Below are positions 2,607-31,001 of a DNA stretch of 64,000 nt, in pieces. The notes beneath the pieces are model-generated. The model was not told where the DNA came from and ran no database searches. It worked only from the letters and a program-made list of their open reading frames with translations. The stretch's first letter is position 1, and every line of letters begins with the position of its first letter. A program made the translations under genes and the position numbers. Source of the DNA: a virus; the IMG/VR virus record IMGVR_UViG_3300042914_003164, positions 1-64,000 of that record. One strand, 5' to 3'.

Positions 2607-2675
2607 TTGGGAGCTGGGGAAGTTGTAGGCTTGCCTGCCCCCAGACTTTACACTCTACACTTTACACTTGCTGCT

Positions 2676-3731: not shown

Positions 3732-4085
3732 ATGACTTTCCGAGTTTACGCCAACAAAGGCTTCCAGATTGTACTGCCAAACGGCTACGAGATAAGCTGC
3801 ATGTTCGGATTTCTAAACTACTGTCAACACCGCAATGATGATAGTTTGGTGCAAGGCTGCATCACTACAAACTGTGGCGAGCTGAAGTCTAAAGACTGCG
3901 AGATTGCAGTTTACGACCCGAATGGTTACAGCGTCGGAGGCTGGCCAGGCTGCTCTGCCATTGAGGGTGTTGCAGGTTGGCAGTCTGTAGATAACTTGTT
4001 GAACGTTATTGATTACGTTCGCAACCTTACGCCGCCCCGCTCAGAAGTTGTTGACACTGAAGACTACTGTGAAGAGCATTACTGA
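3732..4085 (+). CDS. Hypothetical Cys-rich protein, 117 aa
   Basis: The ATG follows the T-run and ATTGCT of the conserved leader and is identical in context to the start at 4150, which supports it. The product is beta-rich with seven Cys spread along it (for example ISCMFGFLNYC and CITTNCGELKSKDC), possibly a metal-binding or disulfide fold. No family is recognised. Confidence 0.7.
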   Translation: MTFRVYANKGFQIVLPNGYEISCMFGFLNYCQHRNDDSLVQGCITTNCGELKSKDCEIAVYDPNGYSVGGWPGCSAIEGVAGWQSVDNLLNVIDYVRNLTPPRSEVVDTEDYCEEHY

Positions 4086-4092
4086 CCAGAGT

Positions 4093-4149
4093 TTGTAGTT
4101 TACAGGAGTACCGGAAACCTGTAACATCCTGCACTCAGTTTTTATTGCT
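4093..4149 (+). promoter_or_regulatory. 5' leader with conserved hairpin, copy 2
   Basis: The leader of the gene at 4150. Its stem is TACAGG/CCTGTA (4101-4106 and 4118-4123), six pairs around the same loop AGTACCGGAAA as copy 1, followed by CACTCAG, a T-run and ATTGCTATG. Compared with 3674-3731 the stem bases differ but pairing is kept, while the loop does not change. Confidence 0.6.
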
Positions 4150-4557: not shown

Positions 4558-4767
4558 ATGGCAGCTTTACCTCAAGTCGAGCAACTCTCTAGCTTCAGAA
4601 AGATACTCTTTGCAGGTCAAAGGGTCACAGTTGAGAGGACGCAGCGCAGTGTTACAGGTTACTGCGTTGTAGGTTGGGAGAGTGGTCTACCTGTTGCAGC
4701 TAGGCCGATTACAGCTCAGAAGATAAAGGCTTTACTTAAAGCTTACCCAAACCACACTTTGATCTGA
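4558..4767 (+). CDS. Hypothetical protein, 69 aa
   Basis: Starts three bases after the previous stop and ends one base before the next start (TGACATG). Small basic beta/alpha protein (VTVERTQRSVTGYCVVGWES in the middle). Unknown family; tight spacing supports translation as part of the same message. Confidence 0.65.
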   Translation: MAALPQVEQLSSFRKILFAGQRVTVERTQRSVTGYCVVGWESGLPVAARPITAQKIKALLKAYPNHTLI

Positions 4768-5704: not shown

Positions 5705-5737
5705 TTTGACTTTGTAGATTAAAGTTTGCACTGTATT

Positions 5738-5819: not shown

Positions 5820-6668
5820 TTGTTGACCGTGCCAGAAGGGAATCAGGAGCTTCAAGGCAGTGACTTTGAAGGTGATGACTTTGAAAATAATGCCGCAGAC
5901 CTTGAAGATTCTATCGCAGATATTGAGTCTTTATTGACTGATGATCTCGGCATTGATGATGGTACTTTAGATGGTATTGATGAAAGTTTGAACCTTAATG
6001 AGTATGGAGAGATTGAAGACGAATTTGTAGTAGACACTAACGATGATAATACTGTAGATGTTAATAGTTCTAATCTTGAAGATCAAACCCCTACATTCCA
6101 AAGCACCAATATCTCACACCCTGCAAACCCAACCCAAAACCCCTCTACCTCTTCACTTGTTAAAACGTGGTCTAAAAGATCGAAACTTGCACCTAATGAG
6201 ACGGATAAAGAATTTGAGATGTTCAAAGTTTACTGTATGTATGGAAGTGGTCGTTCTCACCAATATGTATCCCAGATTACAAACTTTGGACTCAGCACAA
6301 TAAAGATTATAGCACAGCGGAACCAGTGGAGCCGTAGGTCAGGGGACTATGACAGATGGCAGCTTACCCGTAAGATAAAGGAAGCGCAAACTTCCAGGCA
6401 CGAGGAGCACATTAAGAAGCTGGAAGTTTACAGGGAGGAACAGGAAGCACTAGGGAAGCAGCTAACGTTAAACGCTGCACGTATAGCATTCTTAGCAAAC
6501 TCTACACTTGCAAAGATGCTAGACGAGGAGAAGACTCTTGACATGAGGGATGTTCCTGGTATCTTGAATACAGCAGCAAAGCTTGCAGAAGTAGGTAAGA
6601 ACTTGCAAGGTACTGCACTGGGAGTTGATCAGTTGTTAAGTGCTATAGAAGAGTCAGAGGTTGACTGA
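5820..6668 (+). CDS. Terminase small subunit-like HTH protein, 282 aa
   Basis: The first ~100 residues are very acidic (Asp/Glu/Asn) and probably disordered. Residues about 125-185 look like the DNA-binding part of phage terminase small subunits: a helix-turn-helix (YGSGRSHQYVSQI...STIKIIAQRNQW) followed by the RR-x2-DYDRW signature, then a long charged helix. The TTG at 5820 is used because AGGAGG at 5803-5808 is a fair ribosome site. The oddity is distance: the large subunit is 27 kb away, next to another HTH protein (33711). An alternative is a different HTH protein of the same fold. Confidence 0.5.
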   Translation: MLTVPEGNQELQGSDFEGDDFENNAADLEDSIADIESLLTDDLGIDDGTLDGIDESLNLNEYGEIEDEFVVDTNDDNTVDVNSSNLEDQTPTFQSTNISHPANPTQNPSTSSLVKTWSKRSKLAPNETDKEFEMFKVYCMYGSGRSHQYVSQITNFGLSTIKIIAQRNQWSRRSGDYDRWQLTRKIKEAQTSRHEEHIKKLEVYREEQEALGKQLTLNAARIAFLANSTLAKMLDEEKTLDMRDVPGILNTAAKLAEVGKNLQGTALGVDQLLSAIEESEVD

Positions 6669-6814
6669 AGAGGCTGCGCCCACTTCTAACAGCCCGAAGC
6701 CCACACATAGAACCGCTTACGCGGGATAGATTAAATCGGGTTTGTACTGACTGAGGGTTTGCGGGAAGGCACTTCGTTGTTGTAGTTTGCAGGTTGTAAG
6801 GGTTTTTCAGTGGT

Positions 6815-7113: not shown

Positions 7114-7599
7114 TTGACACCTTCAATCAAGCCACTTCACACCCTGATCGCCTCAGACATGCCAGGTTCACACCTGAAAATCATGTTCTTACTCGTTGAT
7201 ATGTGCAATGATTGGGGCTTTACAACAGAGTCTTATGGTTCACTATCAGAAGTATTTAACTTAAACAAGGACAACCTACGCAAGAGGGTAAACACACTTA
7301 TCAAACAAGATATGCTGAAGATCGTAAGCTACAACGGCAGGAAAGGTTTGATGGTTAATCCCATATACTGCAACGATAAACCTTTGCATCTTAAAGAATT
7401 TAGAGAAGCGCTCTGGGAGAAAGAGCTAATACTTACACGTTACAAGCCTAGACACTTCTATGGACCTCCATTCATGGAAACCCAGGAGCTAGCATTTGCA
7501 GCAGTCAAGAGATCGTACAATGGATCCAAACACCCCAAAGAAAGAACAAGACGAATTATTTGCAGGTCTTTGGAGGCAGCAAAAACACGTCAGAGTTAA
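7114..7599 (+). CDS. Winged-helix protein, possible replication initiator, 161 aa
   Basis: Residues about 15-85 read as a winged helix: KIMFLLVDMCNDWGF, then a recognition-helix region (SLSEVFNLNKDNLRKRVNTL) and a wing (MLKIVSYNGRKGLMVNP). This arrangement is common in plasmid and phage replication initiators and in repressors. The C-terminus is basic. The start is TTG at 7114, with ATG at 7159 as an alternative. Two palindromes lie just upstream; a CCATTCATG repeat lies inside the gene (7468-7476) and more follow it. That setting favours a replication or autoregulatory role; the exact family is not recognised. Confidence 0.6.
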   Translation: MTPSIKPLHTLIASDMPGSHLKIMFLLVDMCNDWGFTTESYGSLSEVFNLNKDNLRKRVNTLIKQDMLKIVSYNGRKGLMVNPIYCNDKPLHLKEFREALWEKELILTRYKPRHFYGPPFMETQELAFAAVKRSYNGSKHPKERTRRIICRSLEAAKTRQS

Positions 7600-7780
7600 A
7601 TACTTCAAACTTAAAGAGGACAGTGGAGATATTGCATCTAGGGATCAAGCATTCAGGGAGATGAACAATTTCTTCATTCATGAAGTAGATTACAGTTTCA
7701 GCCCTGAGACTTCAATCGTTGACAGATCACTTCCTAAAGGTTCAATCCTTGATGCCATACGCAAAAGTTGTAAAGATTAG
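7520..7780 (+). CDS. Hypothetical protein, 86 aa
   Basis: The ATG at 7520 is chosen; the gene overlaps the previous one by 80 bases in another frame. Hydrophilic, helical, basic N-terminal half (FAGLWRQQKHVRVKYFKLKE). It ends immediately before the CCATTCATG cluster, and one partial copy (7675-7682) lies inside it. It may be a partner of the upstream winged-helix protein. No family is recognised. Confidence 0.6.
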   Translation: MDPNTPKKEQDELFAGLWRQQKHVRVKYFKLKEDSGDIASRDQAFREMNNFFIHEVDYSFSPETSIVDRSLPKGSILDAIRKSCKD

Positions 7781-7921
7781 CCATTCATGCCTGACACTAA
7801 AGGATGCCGCGGCCATTCATGATACACATTCAACCTTGAAAGCTGCATTCATGAAAACGCCATTCATGACATGACACCAGGAGAACGCCATTCATGATAG
7901 GATGCAGATTAGCCATTCATG
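7781..7921 (+). repeat. CCATTCATG iteron-like cluster
   Basis: The 9-mer CCATTCATG occurs at 7781, 7813, 7860, 7888 and 7913, with a one-mismatch copy GCATTCATG at 7845. Spacings are 32, 32, 15, 28 and 25 bp. Another full copy is at 7468 and a partial one at 7675. All are in the same orientation. Short direct repeats next to an initiator-like gene resemble origin iterons; the uneven spacing is unlike most iteron arrays. Confidence 0.6.
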
Positions 7922-7929
7922 ATGACACC

Positions 7930-8153
7930 TTAGACGTTGCACCTTAAAGATTACAGTTTAGACATTCAACCTTAGACTTTGCACTTTATACGTTACAGCT
8001 TAGAGGCTATACATTAAAGGCTGTACCTTGAACCTTGCACTTTGCACCTTATACATTAAAGCTTGCACCTTATACATTAAAGGCTGCACTTTGTACTTTG
8101 TACTTTATAGGCTAGACTTTATAGGTTAAAGCTTGTAGGTTCAAGTTTATAGT
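7930..8153 (+). repeat. 32-unit in-register degenerate heptamer array
   Basis: These 224 bases divide exactly into 32 units of 7 bp. Every unit fits Y-T-V-N-A-S-N: position 2 is always T, position 5 always A, position 6 always C or G, while positions 4 and 7 vary freely. Typical units are TTGCACC, TTATACA, TTAAAGG and CTGCACT. No stop-free frame of useful length crosses it, so it is not a coding repeat. Confidence 0.85.
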
Positions 8154-8165
8154 TCACTATCCCGC
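8148..8165 (+). repeat. 18-bp direct repeat, copy 1
   Basis: TATAGTTCACTATCCCGC, identical to 8344-8361. It marks the end of the 32-unit heptamer array. A 12-bp core TAGTTCACTATC also occurs at 2997-3008, just after a gene. Confidence 0.8.
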
Positions 8166-8168
8166 ACG

Positions 8169-8280
8169 TTATACTTTGCAGGTTGCGCTTTGCAGTATGT
8201 AGCTCACACTATGTAGCGTCTAGTCTGAGGTTCAGGCTTTACACTTTATGGGCTGCAGGTTGCAGGCTACAGGCTAACCT
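8169..8280 (+). repeat. Second heptamer array, more degenerate, about 16 units
   Basis: After a 15-base break the 7-bp register resumes (TTATACT, TTGCAGG, ... CTGCAGG, TTGCAGG, CTACAGG). Several central units deviate from the consensus (ATGTAGC, TCACACT, GTCTAGT). From 8281 to 8640 single words remain (TTTATAG, CTGCAG) without steady register; I see no gene in that stretch. Confidence 0.65.
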
Positions 8281-8343
8281 TAAGGACCAGACTTTATAGT
8301 AAGCAAGTTATACTCCAAGGCCTGCAGATCGCAGGCTGTAAAC

Positions 8344-8361
8344 TATAGTTCACTATCCCGC
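8344..8361 (+). repeat. 18-bp direct repeat, copy 2
   Basis: TATAGTTCACTATCCCGC, identical to 8148-8165. Both copies follow heptamer words and may be boundary or binding sites. Confidence 0.8.
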
Positions 8362-8582
8362 CAGGTATAACTTAATAGGAGAGAATCAGACTTTATAGGT
8401 TCCTGCCTGCACTGACAGACTAGGTGCAGGCTTCTGTAGGTTTGCTGCCGGTAGTTTGGAGCCTGCCGGCTAACCTTAAAGGCTGGAGAATGCGCGAGCT
8501 TAGGTGATGCCAACCGCTCACACTTTGTAGGTTTGGCGGTGATAAAGCGTAGGCTTGGGTTTGCGACACTTTGCTAATTATC

Positions 8583-8638
8583 GTAGATTCTGGCCGCAGC
8601 AGCTGAGACTTTATAGGTTAACTGTCTGCAGAATCTAC
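8583..8638. repeat. 10-bp perfect inverted repeat
   Basis: GTAGATTCTG (8583-8592) and CAGAATCTAC (8629-8638) are perfect inverted copies 36 bases apart. They stand at the right edge of the heptamer-rich DNA, just left of a gene of different composition, so they could be a hairpin, an operator or a recombination end. Confidence 0.6.
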
Positions 8639-8780
8639 AATTGATCAAACCTTGAATGTTACGGTTCCGTAACAATTGGGCGGATTTGGGCTGATAGGTT
8701 GCCAGTTGGCCGACTTTGCGCTTAAGATACTTTCAAGCGATCGGACCCAAACCTTTAAACCGACCGCCCCCCCTAGGATC

Positions 8781-9419
8781 ATGACAAGCGCCAACCAAAA
8801 GCCCGCACCTAACCAAAAGGGCGGACCCGTCAAGATTGGACAAGCAGATGTTGAACTGCTGGCGTCCGGTGATTTTGCCGCCGCGCTTGCTGCCGCAGTG
8901 TGGGAGCCTCCTGCCCGTGACAAGGCCAGCAAGGGCAGCGGAGACGGCAAGCGCGCTGCGATGCCGATCCTATGGCCAGAGGCCATCAGGACCGCTGCTA
9001 ACGCCCTACAGCCCCCCATGGAACTGCCAGACCAATTCCCGAGCGGTAAGGCCAAGATGCCCGGACAATTGGCGTCGTTCCCCAGCAAGGAAGCGATCAT
9101 AAATGGTTGCCTTGATCGCCCAATTCCGGCCAAGTTGGAGAAACGAACAGACGTGCAACTAGCGCTATTGCTTGACGTTGCACATGGTAAGTACGGGGCC
9201 TTCCGTTTTCCTGCCATGTCTGAGGGTTTCAGACTTCCGCTTGCAAACTTGCTGGAGATCCTGAAGCGCCACCCCAGAACATATAAAGAGAATGTAGCGA
9301 TGCAAAAGCTGCACAACTCCGGCGCAACTTGCCTTATGGCTAAGATCGCAAAAGTTACCGGGCGGATTGTTGCCATGGATCCCGACTTCCAACTTTATCT
9401 GATAGACACTGAATCCTGA
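8781..9419 (+). CDS. Hypothetical protein, 212 aa, compositional island
   Basis: The ATG at 8781 is chosen (TAGGA just upstream); an in-frame extension back to 8676 is possible. The N-terminal third is Ala/Lys/Gly/Pro-rich and probably flexible; the rest is helical, with LALLLDVAHGKYGAFRFP and LANLLEILKRHPRTYKENVAMQKL, and may bind nucleic acid. No family is recognised. GC is higher than its neighbours, heptamer words are absent inside it, and heptamer arrays lie on both sides, so it looks like an insertion. The reverse-strand frame is Ser/Ala-biased and taken as a shadow. Confidence 0.7.
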   Translation: MTSANQKPAPNQKGGPVKIGQADVELLASGDFAAALAAAVWEPPARDKASKGSGDGKRAAMPILWPEAIRTAANALQPPMELPDQFPSGKAKMPGQLASFPSKEAIINGCLDRPIPAKLEKRTDVQLALLLDVAHGKYGAFRFPAMSEGFRLPLANLLEILKRHPRTYKENVAMQKLHNSGATCLMAKIAKVTGRIVAMDPDFQLYLIDTES

Positions 9420-9540: not shown

Positions 9541-9624
9541 TTATACTTTATACTTTACAGGCTACACTTTACAGGTAATAAGCTACACCTGGGGGCCTAT
9601 ACTTTGCAGGTTATATGTTATGGG
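9541..9624 (+). repeat. Heptamer array right of the island gene, 12 units
   Basis: Twelve units of 7 bp in register, starting TTATACT, TTATACT, TTACAGG, CTACACT, with three deviating units (TAATAAG, TGGGGGC, TTATATG). Same strand orientation as the left arrays. From 9625 to 9817 no gene is seen, only T-rich and G/C-rich simple tracts. Confidence 0.7.
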
Positions 9625-9666
9625 GGGTGGGGGAGATTGTGAGGTGTAGTTACTCACCCCCCACTC

Positions 9667-9744
9667 CTGAAATTTTTTTTCAATACCAGCCTCAAAGCAC
9701 TTTACAAATCATACACTTACCACTCCCCCTGAAATTTTTTTTCA
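9667..9744. repeat. Duplicated CTGAAATTTTTTTTCA
   Basis: The 16-mer CTGAAATTTTTTTTCA occurs at 9667-9682 and 9729-9744, each after a C-rich CACTCC tract. Role unknown; this gap separates the + strand block from the end of the - strand operon. Confidence 0.6.
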
Positions 9745-9817
9745 TTCCCCATCCAGAACACCTTACAACTTATTTACTTACAGCTCCCATAATTTTACTC
9801 CCTATCCCAAGCCGACA

Positions 9818-28335: not shown

Positions 28336-28605
28336 ATGAAAGACAGCCCGCCCGCCTCAAGAGACAGGGCCGAAGTCATGTTTCTGTCTAGGTTTGCCTC
28401 CGGTGACAGCTGCCATGTCGAGCGAATTTGTAGCCGCGTGAACTTTGTTCTCAGCAAGCAGGGCGGCTCGGCTGAAGTCTTTTCAGCTCTTTGGAGTTTT
28501 GATCACTGGAATCCATTTTACTGGATTCCCCGTCCACCTGTTATTCCGTGCTCCCTTTTGCAACTTGTAGAGCGTCGTATGAAAGGTGTTATGCCATGGC
28601 AGTGA
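28336..28605 (+). CDS. Doubtful small frame before the glycosyltransferase, 89 aa
   Basis: An open frame ending ten bases inside the glycosyltransferase gene. The product is Cys/Ser/Trp-rich and unlike its neighbours, so it may be spurious. The region 28226-28335 holds no other gene with a good start, only a short open frame in another phase. Confidence 0.25.
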   Translation: MKDSPPASRDRAEVMFLSRFASGDSCHVERICSRVNFVLSKQGGSAEVFSALWSFDHWNPFYWIPRPPVIPCSLLQLVERRMKGVMPWQ

Positions 28606-31001
28606 AACCATACCGTTGCACAGTCATCTCCTGGGATGTTAATCACAACTGCTTGGGGCGAGCACATCTAATTGCCCAGACAGCTCAAAAGCTCTACTCA
28701 CATGTCGATCTTATTGGCTTTGGCTTTACTCATATTTCGGATACGGTGTGGCAGCCGCTCGGAGAGGCTTCTGTTACGTCACTGCCTGAGCCAAAAAACA
28801 CAGAAGATTTAATTCGCATTTGTAGTCGAGTATCAAGCAAAATACAGACCGACCTAGTTATCGCTTGCAAGGCTAGACTACCTTCTTTGCTGCTTGGCTA
28901 TTGCATCAAGCGCAAGACGGGCTCTCGCCTAATTGTTGACATTGATGACTACGAACCATCTTTTGTTGCAGGCGCTCCAGAGTCGAAACTTTTTAAGCGC
29001 ATGACAGCGCTTGAGCTACTGCAAGAGCTGCCGAAGCATATAGAAGAACCTCCGTACTCACCTTTTTGGACCGTGGTTGCACAGGAAGTGATTTCCTGCG
29101 CCGATGGAATTACTACTTGCGATACCCCATTGCAATCAATGTATGGAGGCGAGGTAATACCGCATTTGCGCGATCCAAATCTTTTTGCGGAACCCCCAAA
29201 GCCCCTGCCTAGTGAACTTGAGGAGGCTCGCAAGAAAAACGGTTCAATTGTAATGTTTCTTGGGACGCCGAATCGACACAAGGGAGTCGTTGAGATCGCA
29301 AAAGCCTGCCAACAAATTGAGGGAGTTGCCCCAGTTTATATTGGAACTATTGCCGACAGGGGAGTTGAGAATGATATTACAAGATCATGCCAAAAAGCTG
29401 TTTTAATAGAGAGCCTGTCTTTTGACCTAGTGCCGTCTTGCGTAAGGCAAGCTGATCTAGTGGTTTTGCTTCAAAACGTTAAATCTGTAGCAAGTGCCTA
29501 CCAGTTGCCAGCGAAAGCCTCTGATGCGTTGGCCGCTGGCGTTCAAATTGTAGCCTCGCGCACAGAACCTATGGCAATGCTTGTTGACATGGGTTTCAAG
29601 GGGATTACTCTGATTGAGTCCGCCGATGACTTAACCCCTGCAATCAAGGCGACAATTGGCAGCCCCTTAAGCAAGGCCGACAAAGAGTACAACCTTAAAC
29701 TTTTCGCTAAAACGCTTTCATTTGATGCTGGCGCGGAAACCATGAAAAAACTGTTGTTACCACCAGTTAAGCACAGCGTTAGTGGGATTCTGGATGCCCT
29801 GCTAAATTTCAAAAAAAATTCAAGAAAAAAGATTGTTGTCGTTTTCTGGAAACAAAACGACTTCGGCGTTTTTGGTCGAAGAGTCGATATGGTAGTAAAG
29901 TATCTAGCATCCAGAAGCGACATATCTCGTGTGATCGTCATCGAGAAACCTGTTTCAACTCTTGATCTTAAGCGCTACAAAAACAGTTCAAATTCTCATT
30001 TTAGGCTAATCTATAAATTTATCCAAAAAAAACGAGCCGGTCTATTAGATACTGACAAGATTTCGGTCTGGACCCCATTGATGCCACCTGGGCTGGACTT
30101 GGCTCAGCAAAAAGATTTTATACTAAAATACTGTAAGGATGCTTTGCAAGAGGCTCTTGTGGATTTGCCTGGCTCCTTCGTTGGTGCCTGGGTTTACCCT
30201 CATTTTCGTAATGCCGTCGAAATACTGGATAGTCTGCCTTTTGATCATGTCGTGGCTGACATCGTAGACGACCATAGAGCCTGGCCCGGCACAAGTGAAG
30301 AAAAGAAGAGGGAACTTACAGAGCAGTATGCGCAAGTCCTTGGAAAAAGTGATTGCAGTGTTTACAACTGCAAGCCTGCAATGAATTCCATTGGCAAGCT
30401 GTCAAGCAAGCCGACTCACCTTGTTCCGAATGGAGTTGATGTTGACCTTATCTATAAGGGTGGCCCTAAGGTAGAGGAGTTGAGGGAGTCCTTGGTTTCA
30501 CCGGGGAACTGGCGCTACATAATTGGTTATACCGGAAATCTCGAAAGTAAAATCAACTGGCCACTTGTCGAACACGTAGCCGACAAAAACAAAGATGCCT
30601 TGGTGCTAATGATTGGCAGCACTCACATGGCGGAAAATCTGCCACAAAGGCCAAACATTAAATACATTGGCCCCGTTTCCTACATGCACCTGAAGCTGTA
30701 TTTGCAGGTTTTCGATGTTGCCATTATACCACACATAACAAATGATCTAACAGAAAACATGAATCCTCTTAAGAGCTATGTTTATGCGACACTTGGTATT
30801 CCAATAGTGGCAACAAATTGTCCGAATATGCCGCAATTGCCGCAGATTCGCATGGTTGGCCAACATGCTAGATTCGCAAAGCATGTTAGATCGGCTATAG
30901 TAAAAGATCAAAATCTTTCCGCAGAGGAGATACATGCAATAATGAAGGCCCACTCCTGGGAAAGTAGACTCAAGGATCTTGCTGATTCATTCTACAAATA
31001 A
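28596..31001 (+). CDS. Tandem GT-B glycosyltransferase, 801 aa
   Basis: Two GT4-like halves in one chain. The first (1-400) begins with DVNHNCLGRAHLIAQ, has a MFLGTPNRHKGVVEIAKAC donor-domain start and PAKASDALAAGVQIVAS near residue 310. The second (from about 410) has VPNGVDVDL, IGYTGNLESKINWPLVE and NPLKSYVYATLGIPIVAT, the last two being the usual nucleotide-sugar donor-site regions. It should move sugars from activated donors to glycan, lipid or protein. The start is the ATG at 28596. DNA is more AT-rich than its surroundings with long A-runs, suggesting recent acquisition. Surface change of the host or virion glycosylation are both possible. Confidence 0.85.
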   Translation: MAVKPYRCTVISWDVNHNCLGRAHLIAQTAQKLYSHVDLIGFGFTHISDTVWQPLGEASVTSLPEPKNTEDLIRICSRVSSKIQTDLVIACKARLPSLLLGYCIKRKTGSRLIVDIDDYEPSFVAGAPESKLFKRMTALELLQELPKHIEEPPYSPFWTVVAQEVISCADGITTCDTPLQSMYGGEVIPHLRDPNLFAEPPKPLPSELEEARKKNGSIVMFLGTPNRHKGVVEIAKACQQIEGVAPVYIGTIADRGVENDITRSCQKAVLIESLSFDLVPSCVRQADLVVLLQNVKSVASAYQLPAKASDALAAGVQIVASRTEPMAMLVDMGFKGITLIESADDLTPAIKATIGSPLSKADKEYNLKLFAKTLSFDAGAETMKKLLLPPVKHSVSGILDALLNFKKNSRKKIVVVFWKQNDFGVFGRRVDMVVKYLASRSDISRVIVIEKPVSTLDLKRYKNSSNSHFRLIYKFIQKKRAGLLDTDKISVWTPLMPPGLDLAQQKDFILKYCKDALQEALVDLPGSFVGAWVYPHFRNAVEILDSLPFDHVVADIVDDHRAWPGTSEEKKRELTEQYAQVLGKSDCSVYNCKPAMNSIGKLSSKPTHLVPNGVDVDLIYKGGPKVEELRESLVSPGNWRYIIGYTGNLESKINWPLVEHVADKNKDALVLMIGSTHMAENLPQRPNIKYIGPVSYMHLKLYLQVFDVAIIPHITNDLTENMNPLKSYVYATLGIPIVATNCPNMPQLPQIRMVGQHARFAKHVRSAIVKDQNLSAEEIHAIMKAHSWESRLKDLADSFYK

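Follow-up and report, generated by a model that had tools for sequence, protein, structure and literature searches.

What does a field of degenerate seven-base repeats do beside the small terminase gene of an uncultivated cyanobacterial virus, and which protein would read it? The question is raised by a window of 64,000 bases (bases 1-64000 of the 109,690-base IMG/VR virus record IMGVR_UViG_3300042914_003164). The contig carries terminase, portal and tail genes together with a cyanobacterial-type sigma factor, ThyX and RtcB, and this gene content marks its source as a cyanobacterial siphovirus. The TerL of the window is 40% identical to that of cyanophage KBS-S-2A, and its TerS is a distant relative of the proteins annotated as terS in S-CBS2 and PSS2, while a search of isolated phages for DNA homology to the array region (7500-8700) found none. 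All virus contigs compared here are fragments, and every virus record checked is classed as linear, without end repeats. Elsewhere in the window, the gene at 28548-31001, upstream of the phage head genes, encodes a protein of 817 aa that has two domains of glycosyltransferase group 1. Beyond the window, at 102820-102900 of the contig (L010), the sequence is strongly periodic at 12 bp, with self-matches of 0.66 (lag 12) and 0.70 (lag 36), probably inside a coding repeat.

The answer proposed here, with a probability of about 0.42, is that the field is a cis-acting packaging-initiation (pac-like) track, which would be bound side by side through the deformability of its DNA. The locus comprises the following features, in window coordinates:

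5820-6668, plus strand: TerS-like gene (small terminase subunit) that borders the conserved locus on the left; its product matches phrog_6299 (terminase small subunit) with E 4e-13
7114-7599, plus strand: gene for a winged-helix DNA-binding protein (phrog_428, replication initiation, E 1e-5), with its true start perhaps at ATG 7159
7781-7920 (about 140 bp), plus strand: five iteron-like CCATTCAT repeats (at 7781, 7813, 7860, 7888 and 7913), common to both clades described below
7895-8349, plus strand: heptamer field in its full extent, 63 units interrupted by register shifts (chain score 280 bits; shuffles at most 16)
7930-8153, plus strand: core array of 32 perfect in-register YTVNASN heptamers, from unit division and from run and pattern counts
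8153-8165, plus strand: TTCACTATCCCGC motif, copy 1
8349-8361, plus strand: TTCACTATCCCGC motif, copy 2
8583-8638, unstranded: GTAGATTCTG ... CAGAATCTAC, an inverted repeat at the field's right-hand edge, from direct reading
8657-8674, unstranded: palindrome TGTTACGG TT CCGTAACA, from direct reading
8781-9419, plus strand: right border gene without assigned function (in-frame ATG 8781), with homologues in the corresponding position in both clades (lowest E 1e-67)

The right border gene gave no Pfam and no PHROG match. As the preliminary description of this DNA had it, the stretch 7930-8153 divides into exactly 32 heptamers, with T at position 2, A at position 5 and C or G at position 6 in 32 of 32 units each. 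Position 1 is T in 28 units and C in 4, position 3 is A in 19, G in 11 and C in 2, and position 6 is C in 19 and G in 13; positions 4 and 7, described as variable, are both near uniform in their base usage across the 32 units. The period-7 self-match is 0.590, compared with 0.270 +/- 0.032 in 2000 dinucleotide shuffles (maximum 0.378), and no in-register run of YTVNASN units in the 109,690-base contig is longer than these 32; 60 whole-contig shuffles gave at most 3. Three YTRNASN units in succession occur 31 times in the window, for an expectation of 0.06. The extent of 224 bp is right for the core and too short for the array, which continues with phase slips over about 7895-8349; looser heptamer units reach to about 8640. 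Higher-order duplications of 63 bp and 49 bp are present within the array. A coding repeat was rejected, since TAA, TAG and TGA codons occur all through it.

A TerL search returned 33 viral loci, and the contigs reaching TerS were examined. Eight relatives from eight IMG datasets (G001, G002, G003, G011, G014, G017, G021 and L317) hold a heptamer field of 29-83 units scoring 75-273 bits, downstream of TerS and always on the TerS strand; contigs not extending to the TerS region gave no heptamer matches. With these arrays at the matching slot in eight other metagenome assemblies, the window array is neither an assembly error nor a product of chance. The gene order in the nine heptamer phages is TerS, winged helix, CATTCAY repeats, heptamer field with TTCACTATCCCGC, and right border gene. 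In the five heptamer contigs that were read whole, the small outlying islands of heptamers and the TTCACTATCCCGC motif are confined to the strand of the field, and weak minus-strand runs elsewhere lie solely inside or beside arrays. When the units of eight phages are pooled, position 4 is a pyrimidine in 81% of them, so that the core of the unit becomes TRYA, followed by a three-base linker; TGCA, TACA, TATA and TGTA account for 159 of 210 cores. Place, strand and consensus are thus kept in eight relatives, which supports selection on part of each unit, as the earlier remark implied; it likewise supports the class of site then suggested (packaging, origin or partition). That the field belongs to a conserved cis-acting locus is, on these comparisons, well supported.

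Copy 1 of TTCACTATCCCGC with its downstream context was matched five times among the viral_contigs, and 5/5 matches came from family contigs or from one family sample. The motif has what we take to be a resemblance to the CACTAT of T7/SP6 promoters; a promoter of that type was dropped as an explanation, as no single-subunit RNA polymerase was found among the scanned proteins.

Six further loci that span the slot lack heptamers (G009/L320, L321 and L324-L327) and retain the winged-helix gene, the CATTCAY repeats and the right border gene. Their slot holds degenerate 17-bp direct repeats, with self-matches of up to about 0.5-0.63 at lag 17 and up to 0.66 at lag 34, and it starts with CATTCAY elements as in the heptamer phages. 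Taken together, the TerS gene adjoins the field in the window and in 14 other slot-spanning loci, all of which carry the winged-helix gene and, downstream of TerS, the CATTCAY repeats. In L324-L327, TerL follows the border gene, which places the field within the terminase module. This common slot favours the pac-like track; against it, TerL is 10-26 kb away from the field in the heptamer clade, where other genes are inserted between the two. The T7-like cyanophage S-SRP02 has a homologue of the winged-helix protein beside DNA maturase B, which also points towards packaging, and carries no repeats there. Less favourable to the pac-like track are the isolated marine relatives PSS2, S-CBS2, S-CRES1 and S-CRES3, in which terS is directly followed by terL, with no such array in the stretches read. 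A side observation concerns the TerL gene itself, which is split in L245, L249 and L256 (G009, G011 and G014): the first 80-130 residues are divergent (44-57% versus about 86%) and are followed by a gap of about 330-930 bp before the remainder, which suggests an intron, intein or homing-endonuclease insertion.

Which protein, then, would read the array? The winged-helix protein at 7114 had been put forward as a candidate, and its tree speaks against this role: the window protein groups with homologues from the 17-bp phages (support 100/99), although its array is of the 7-bp type. The tree is out of step with the repeat period, and the winged-helix gene has therefore been exchanged without a change of period, so that this protein is unlikely to set the heptamer period; it may instead read the CATTCAY elements, which are present in both clades. 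In the TerS tree the repeat period (7 or 17) changes only once, with support of 89/99 for the heptamer group. TerS, or something inherited together with it, would accordingly be the better candidate for the reader, and this agreement of period and TerS favours the pac-like track. TerS and the field could also merely share the history of one genome segment, and the TerL tree, being unresolved, was unusable as a backbone control.

What the two kinds of field have in common may lie in the DNA steps. The heptamer consensus retains two flexible steps, T-R and Y-A. In 220-bp windows, the density of TA, CA and TG steps taken together reaches its maximum inside the field in 11/11 sequences, that of TA alone in 10/11 and that of RR/YY in 0/11; the TA/CA/TG class was picked after the heptamer consensus had been seen, and because it was taken from the heptamers the fresh test consists only of the six sequences with 17-bp fields, which represent about three independent lineages with four close relatives among them. 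After correction for base composition the signal is weaker, with the maximum in the field in 4/11 sequences, within the top 2.3% in six others and within the top 5.2% in one. The duplex of the array is among the least stable of the contig: in a half-window scan only two 300-bp windows in 109 kb are less stable (array z +2.4), and the G+C of the field is under the locus mean in all loci but L320. For SPP1/SF6, whose pac lies at the small-terminase gene and has direct repeats only moderately conserved between relatives, it was proposed that the DNA-binding domain of the terminase selects flexible DNA and not sequence (PMC4737164). Flexible-step enrichment and low stability fit this conformational-selection model, which would explain both the partly fixed units and the changeable period.

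On this basis the following course of events may be envisaged for the pac-like track. The array would be the main part of a cis-acting direct-repeat track in the terminase module of a cyanobacterial siphovirus family, on which the small terminase would assemble side by side, perhaps with assistance from the linked winged-helix protein sitting on the CATTCAY repeats; the assembled small terminase would flag a single site for the large terminase. The track would be selected for regularly spaced deformable pyrimidine-purine steps, namely TRYA in every 7 bp here and TA-rich 17-bp units in the sister phages; under such selection only part of each unit would be fixed and the period could change between lineages. 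It is a further guess that recognition would go by bendiness instead of exact letters. More broadly, and with rather low odds in our estimate, a mechanical code might exist in which regularly spaced deformable steps define a start of packaging or replication, with letters and period (7 or 17 bp) left free and the shape read by a small-terminase ring or filament.

Packaging initiation is considered the most likely role and is ranked above a replication origin, which is possible but doubtful. In an iteron-type origin, the winged-helix protein (RepL/O-like) would bind CATTCAY, the field of low stability would melt and the helicase would be loaded. The protein indeed matches replication-initiation profiles, and it resembles replication initiators as much as anything else, which counts against the pac-like track; the RepL profile match within its family is weak (2/15 members), and an AlphaFold model of one member (pLDDT 77 with 15 homologues; a single-sequence model at pLDDT 36 was useless) is MarR/RepL-like and matched RepL or replicon-initiator models in a viral structure library. 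The CATTCAY copies lie 17-20 bp apart in L320 and L321, and the low stability and low G+C given above suit an origin as well. Iteron origins of RepL or lambda-O-like type are thus similar in their direct repeats beside a winged-helix gene, their low duplex stability and, in the sister phages, the CATTCAY spacing, but the present field is contiguous at 7 bp, and a better initiator candidate (phrog_4707, E 3e-22) adjoins DnaB at 79-82 kb of the contig. Moreover, the winged helix was exchanged while the repeat period remained unchanged. Cumulative GC skew peaks near the field in 6/6 contigs, with a sign opposite to that of a G-rich leading strand leaving an origin (a local maximum, not a minimum); it was rejected as origin evidence for this sign and because the peak follows, and is confounded with, the switch of gene strand.

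It is improbable that the heptamers are neutral, born by slippage like the STRR repeats of cyanobacteria and carried without function. In favour of such a neutral origin, the 63-bp and 49-bp duplications show slippage or recombination within the array, and degenerate heptamers are not foreign to bacteria. The preliminary description had held the known cyanobacterial heptamers to be exact, which is contradicted by heterogeneous repeats such as (GGGANTN)n in Xanthomonas and Nostoc (PMC4692102), by the degenerate heptanucleotide repeats of the cyanobacterial tRNA-Leu intron (PMC3488679) and by degenerate arrays in Moorena; as a degenerate repeat, then, the heptamer belongs to a known kind. In cyanobacteria and others, repeats of TAACTGA in as many as 43 copies have also been described (PMC4679880). 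In Moorena (G024, L331-L350), period 7 dominates, with 135 regions in 375 kb compared with 0-25 for periods 5, 6 and 8-12, in regions fetched because they held pattern matches; units with degenerate columns include GGGARYA, CCCTRYT and TTRNAGG. STRR, GGGANTN and tRNA-Leu intron P6b repeats share with the phage field a tandem 7-bp period, set degenerate positions and a mostly intergenic location. However, the cyanobacterial and Xanthomonas heptamers are dispersed over both chromosome strands, whereas in the phages the one major array has a fixed locus, keeps to one strand and mixes C and G at position 6. Among 194 cyanobacterial genomes sampled, this phage-type unit was found in one, a Chamaesiphon that had itself been retrieved earlier with the same pattern, and was absent from the other 193. 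Drift also fits poorly with two positions unchanged in 32 units while two others are saturated, and with slot, strand and consensus constant across nine phages next to a sister clade that has another period in that slot.

A pattern-selected scan of genome_contigs gave at least 120 loci, and among the matches listed most were from Prevotella and Flavobacterium, with near-exact heptamers. At L126:1305-1346, six YTVNASN heptamers form a 42-bp run shortly before the start codon of an RND efflux pump gene. This run recurs identically, with like flanks, in 13 further Flavobacterium-type loci, while the heptamers next to it vary. The run has the look of a conserved leader element, and it had no Rfam match at the gathering score.

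Besides the field, islands of 3-12 units lie on the plus strand of the left arm, many of them in intergenic leaders of left-arm genes. A further one occupies 4079-4106, and the others are as follows:

2648-2668, plus strand: three-unit island that stops 7 bp short of ATG 2676, within a 5' leader
5705-5732, plus strand: four-unit island between a stop codon and TerS
6780-6800, plus strand: three-unit island between TerS and the winged-helix gene
9541-9624, plus strand: 12-unit island past the right border gene (54-56 bits)

The last adjoins a 61-bp tandem repeat (9666-9788; 2.0 copies, 75% matches) in a convergent intergenic region. A shared left-arm cassette, seen at 2590-2690 of the window and at islands in G001, G002, G003, G011 and G017, runs from a TATAAT-like box to a start codon, with first a G-rich/C-rich inverted repeat in the 5' leader and then heptamer units in between. 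It may represent a phage promoter whose leader forms a hairpin.

The leader islands are what would be expected if a small DNA-binding protein of the phage, like omega of pSM19035, used the heptamers as its operator or centromere, with the islands as left-arm operators, a reading about as improbable as neutral repeats or slightly more so. The parS of pSM19035, bound by the ribbon-helix-helix protein omega, is similar in that its non-palindromic 7-bp units follow one another without spacing, in sites of 7-10 that overlap promoters (PMC9499535), and proteins of 158 aa (612-1088), 91 aa (1625-1900) and 69 aa (4558-4767) are restricted to the heptamer clade in the available data, in which few left arms represent the 17-bp clade. 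Its consensus, however, is WATCACW (PMC9499535) as against YTRNASN in the phages, and its 7-10 copies are of mixed orientation, whereas the phage field has tens in one orientation; 29-83 units far exceed the needs of an operator. Pfam scans of about 110 contig ORFs, which small or diverged proteins could escape, found neither a ParA-type ATPase nor a ribbon-helix-helix gene.

It is very improbable that the heptamers work at the RNA level, as parts of leaders and as a long transcript with a structural or sponge function. In favour of an RNA role, all islands are strand-biased, several lie between a TATAAT-like box and a start codon, and the tRNA-Leu intron heptanucleotide repeats fold into a hairpin (PMC3488679), but the field comes after the stop codon of the winged-helix gene and the coding strand of the window array folds no better than column-shuffled arrays (z +0.17; other phages -0.65 to -7.4). 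An RNA hairpin was rejected on this result for the coding strand; the opposite strand reached a z of -2.4, and G017 is strongly folded for reasons of its own. No Rfam RNA or tRNA was found in the window.

Among known systems, the pac of SPP1/SF6 is alike in being a single cis-acting region with direct repeats at the small-terminase gene. In SPP1, a few box repeats lie across the start of that gene, whereas the present phages have their 29-83 contiguous heptamers behind the winged-helix gene, some 1.3 kb past TerS. In the literature on phage and cyanophage repeats, as far as our incomplete coverage goes, no paper on a TerS-field locus was found, and the combination of a fixed locus with an exchangeable period in phages is new to us. 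Packaging-initiation sites are known in few phages, and it is disputed whether the small terminase recognizes sequence or shape; one locus that keeps its position and mechanics while changing its period is a natural experiment that can separate the two kinds of reading. The field also serves to mark uncultivated cyanobacterial siphoviruses, and it offers a test case for the question why bacterial genomes are so rich in 7-bp repeats.
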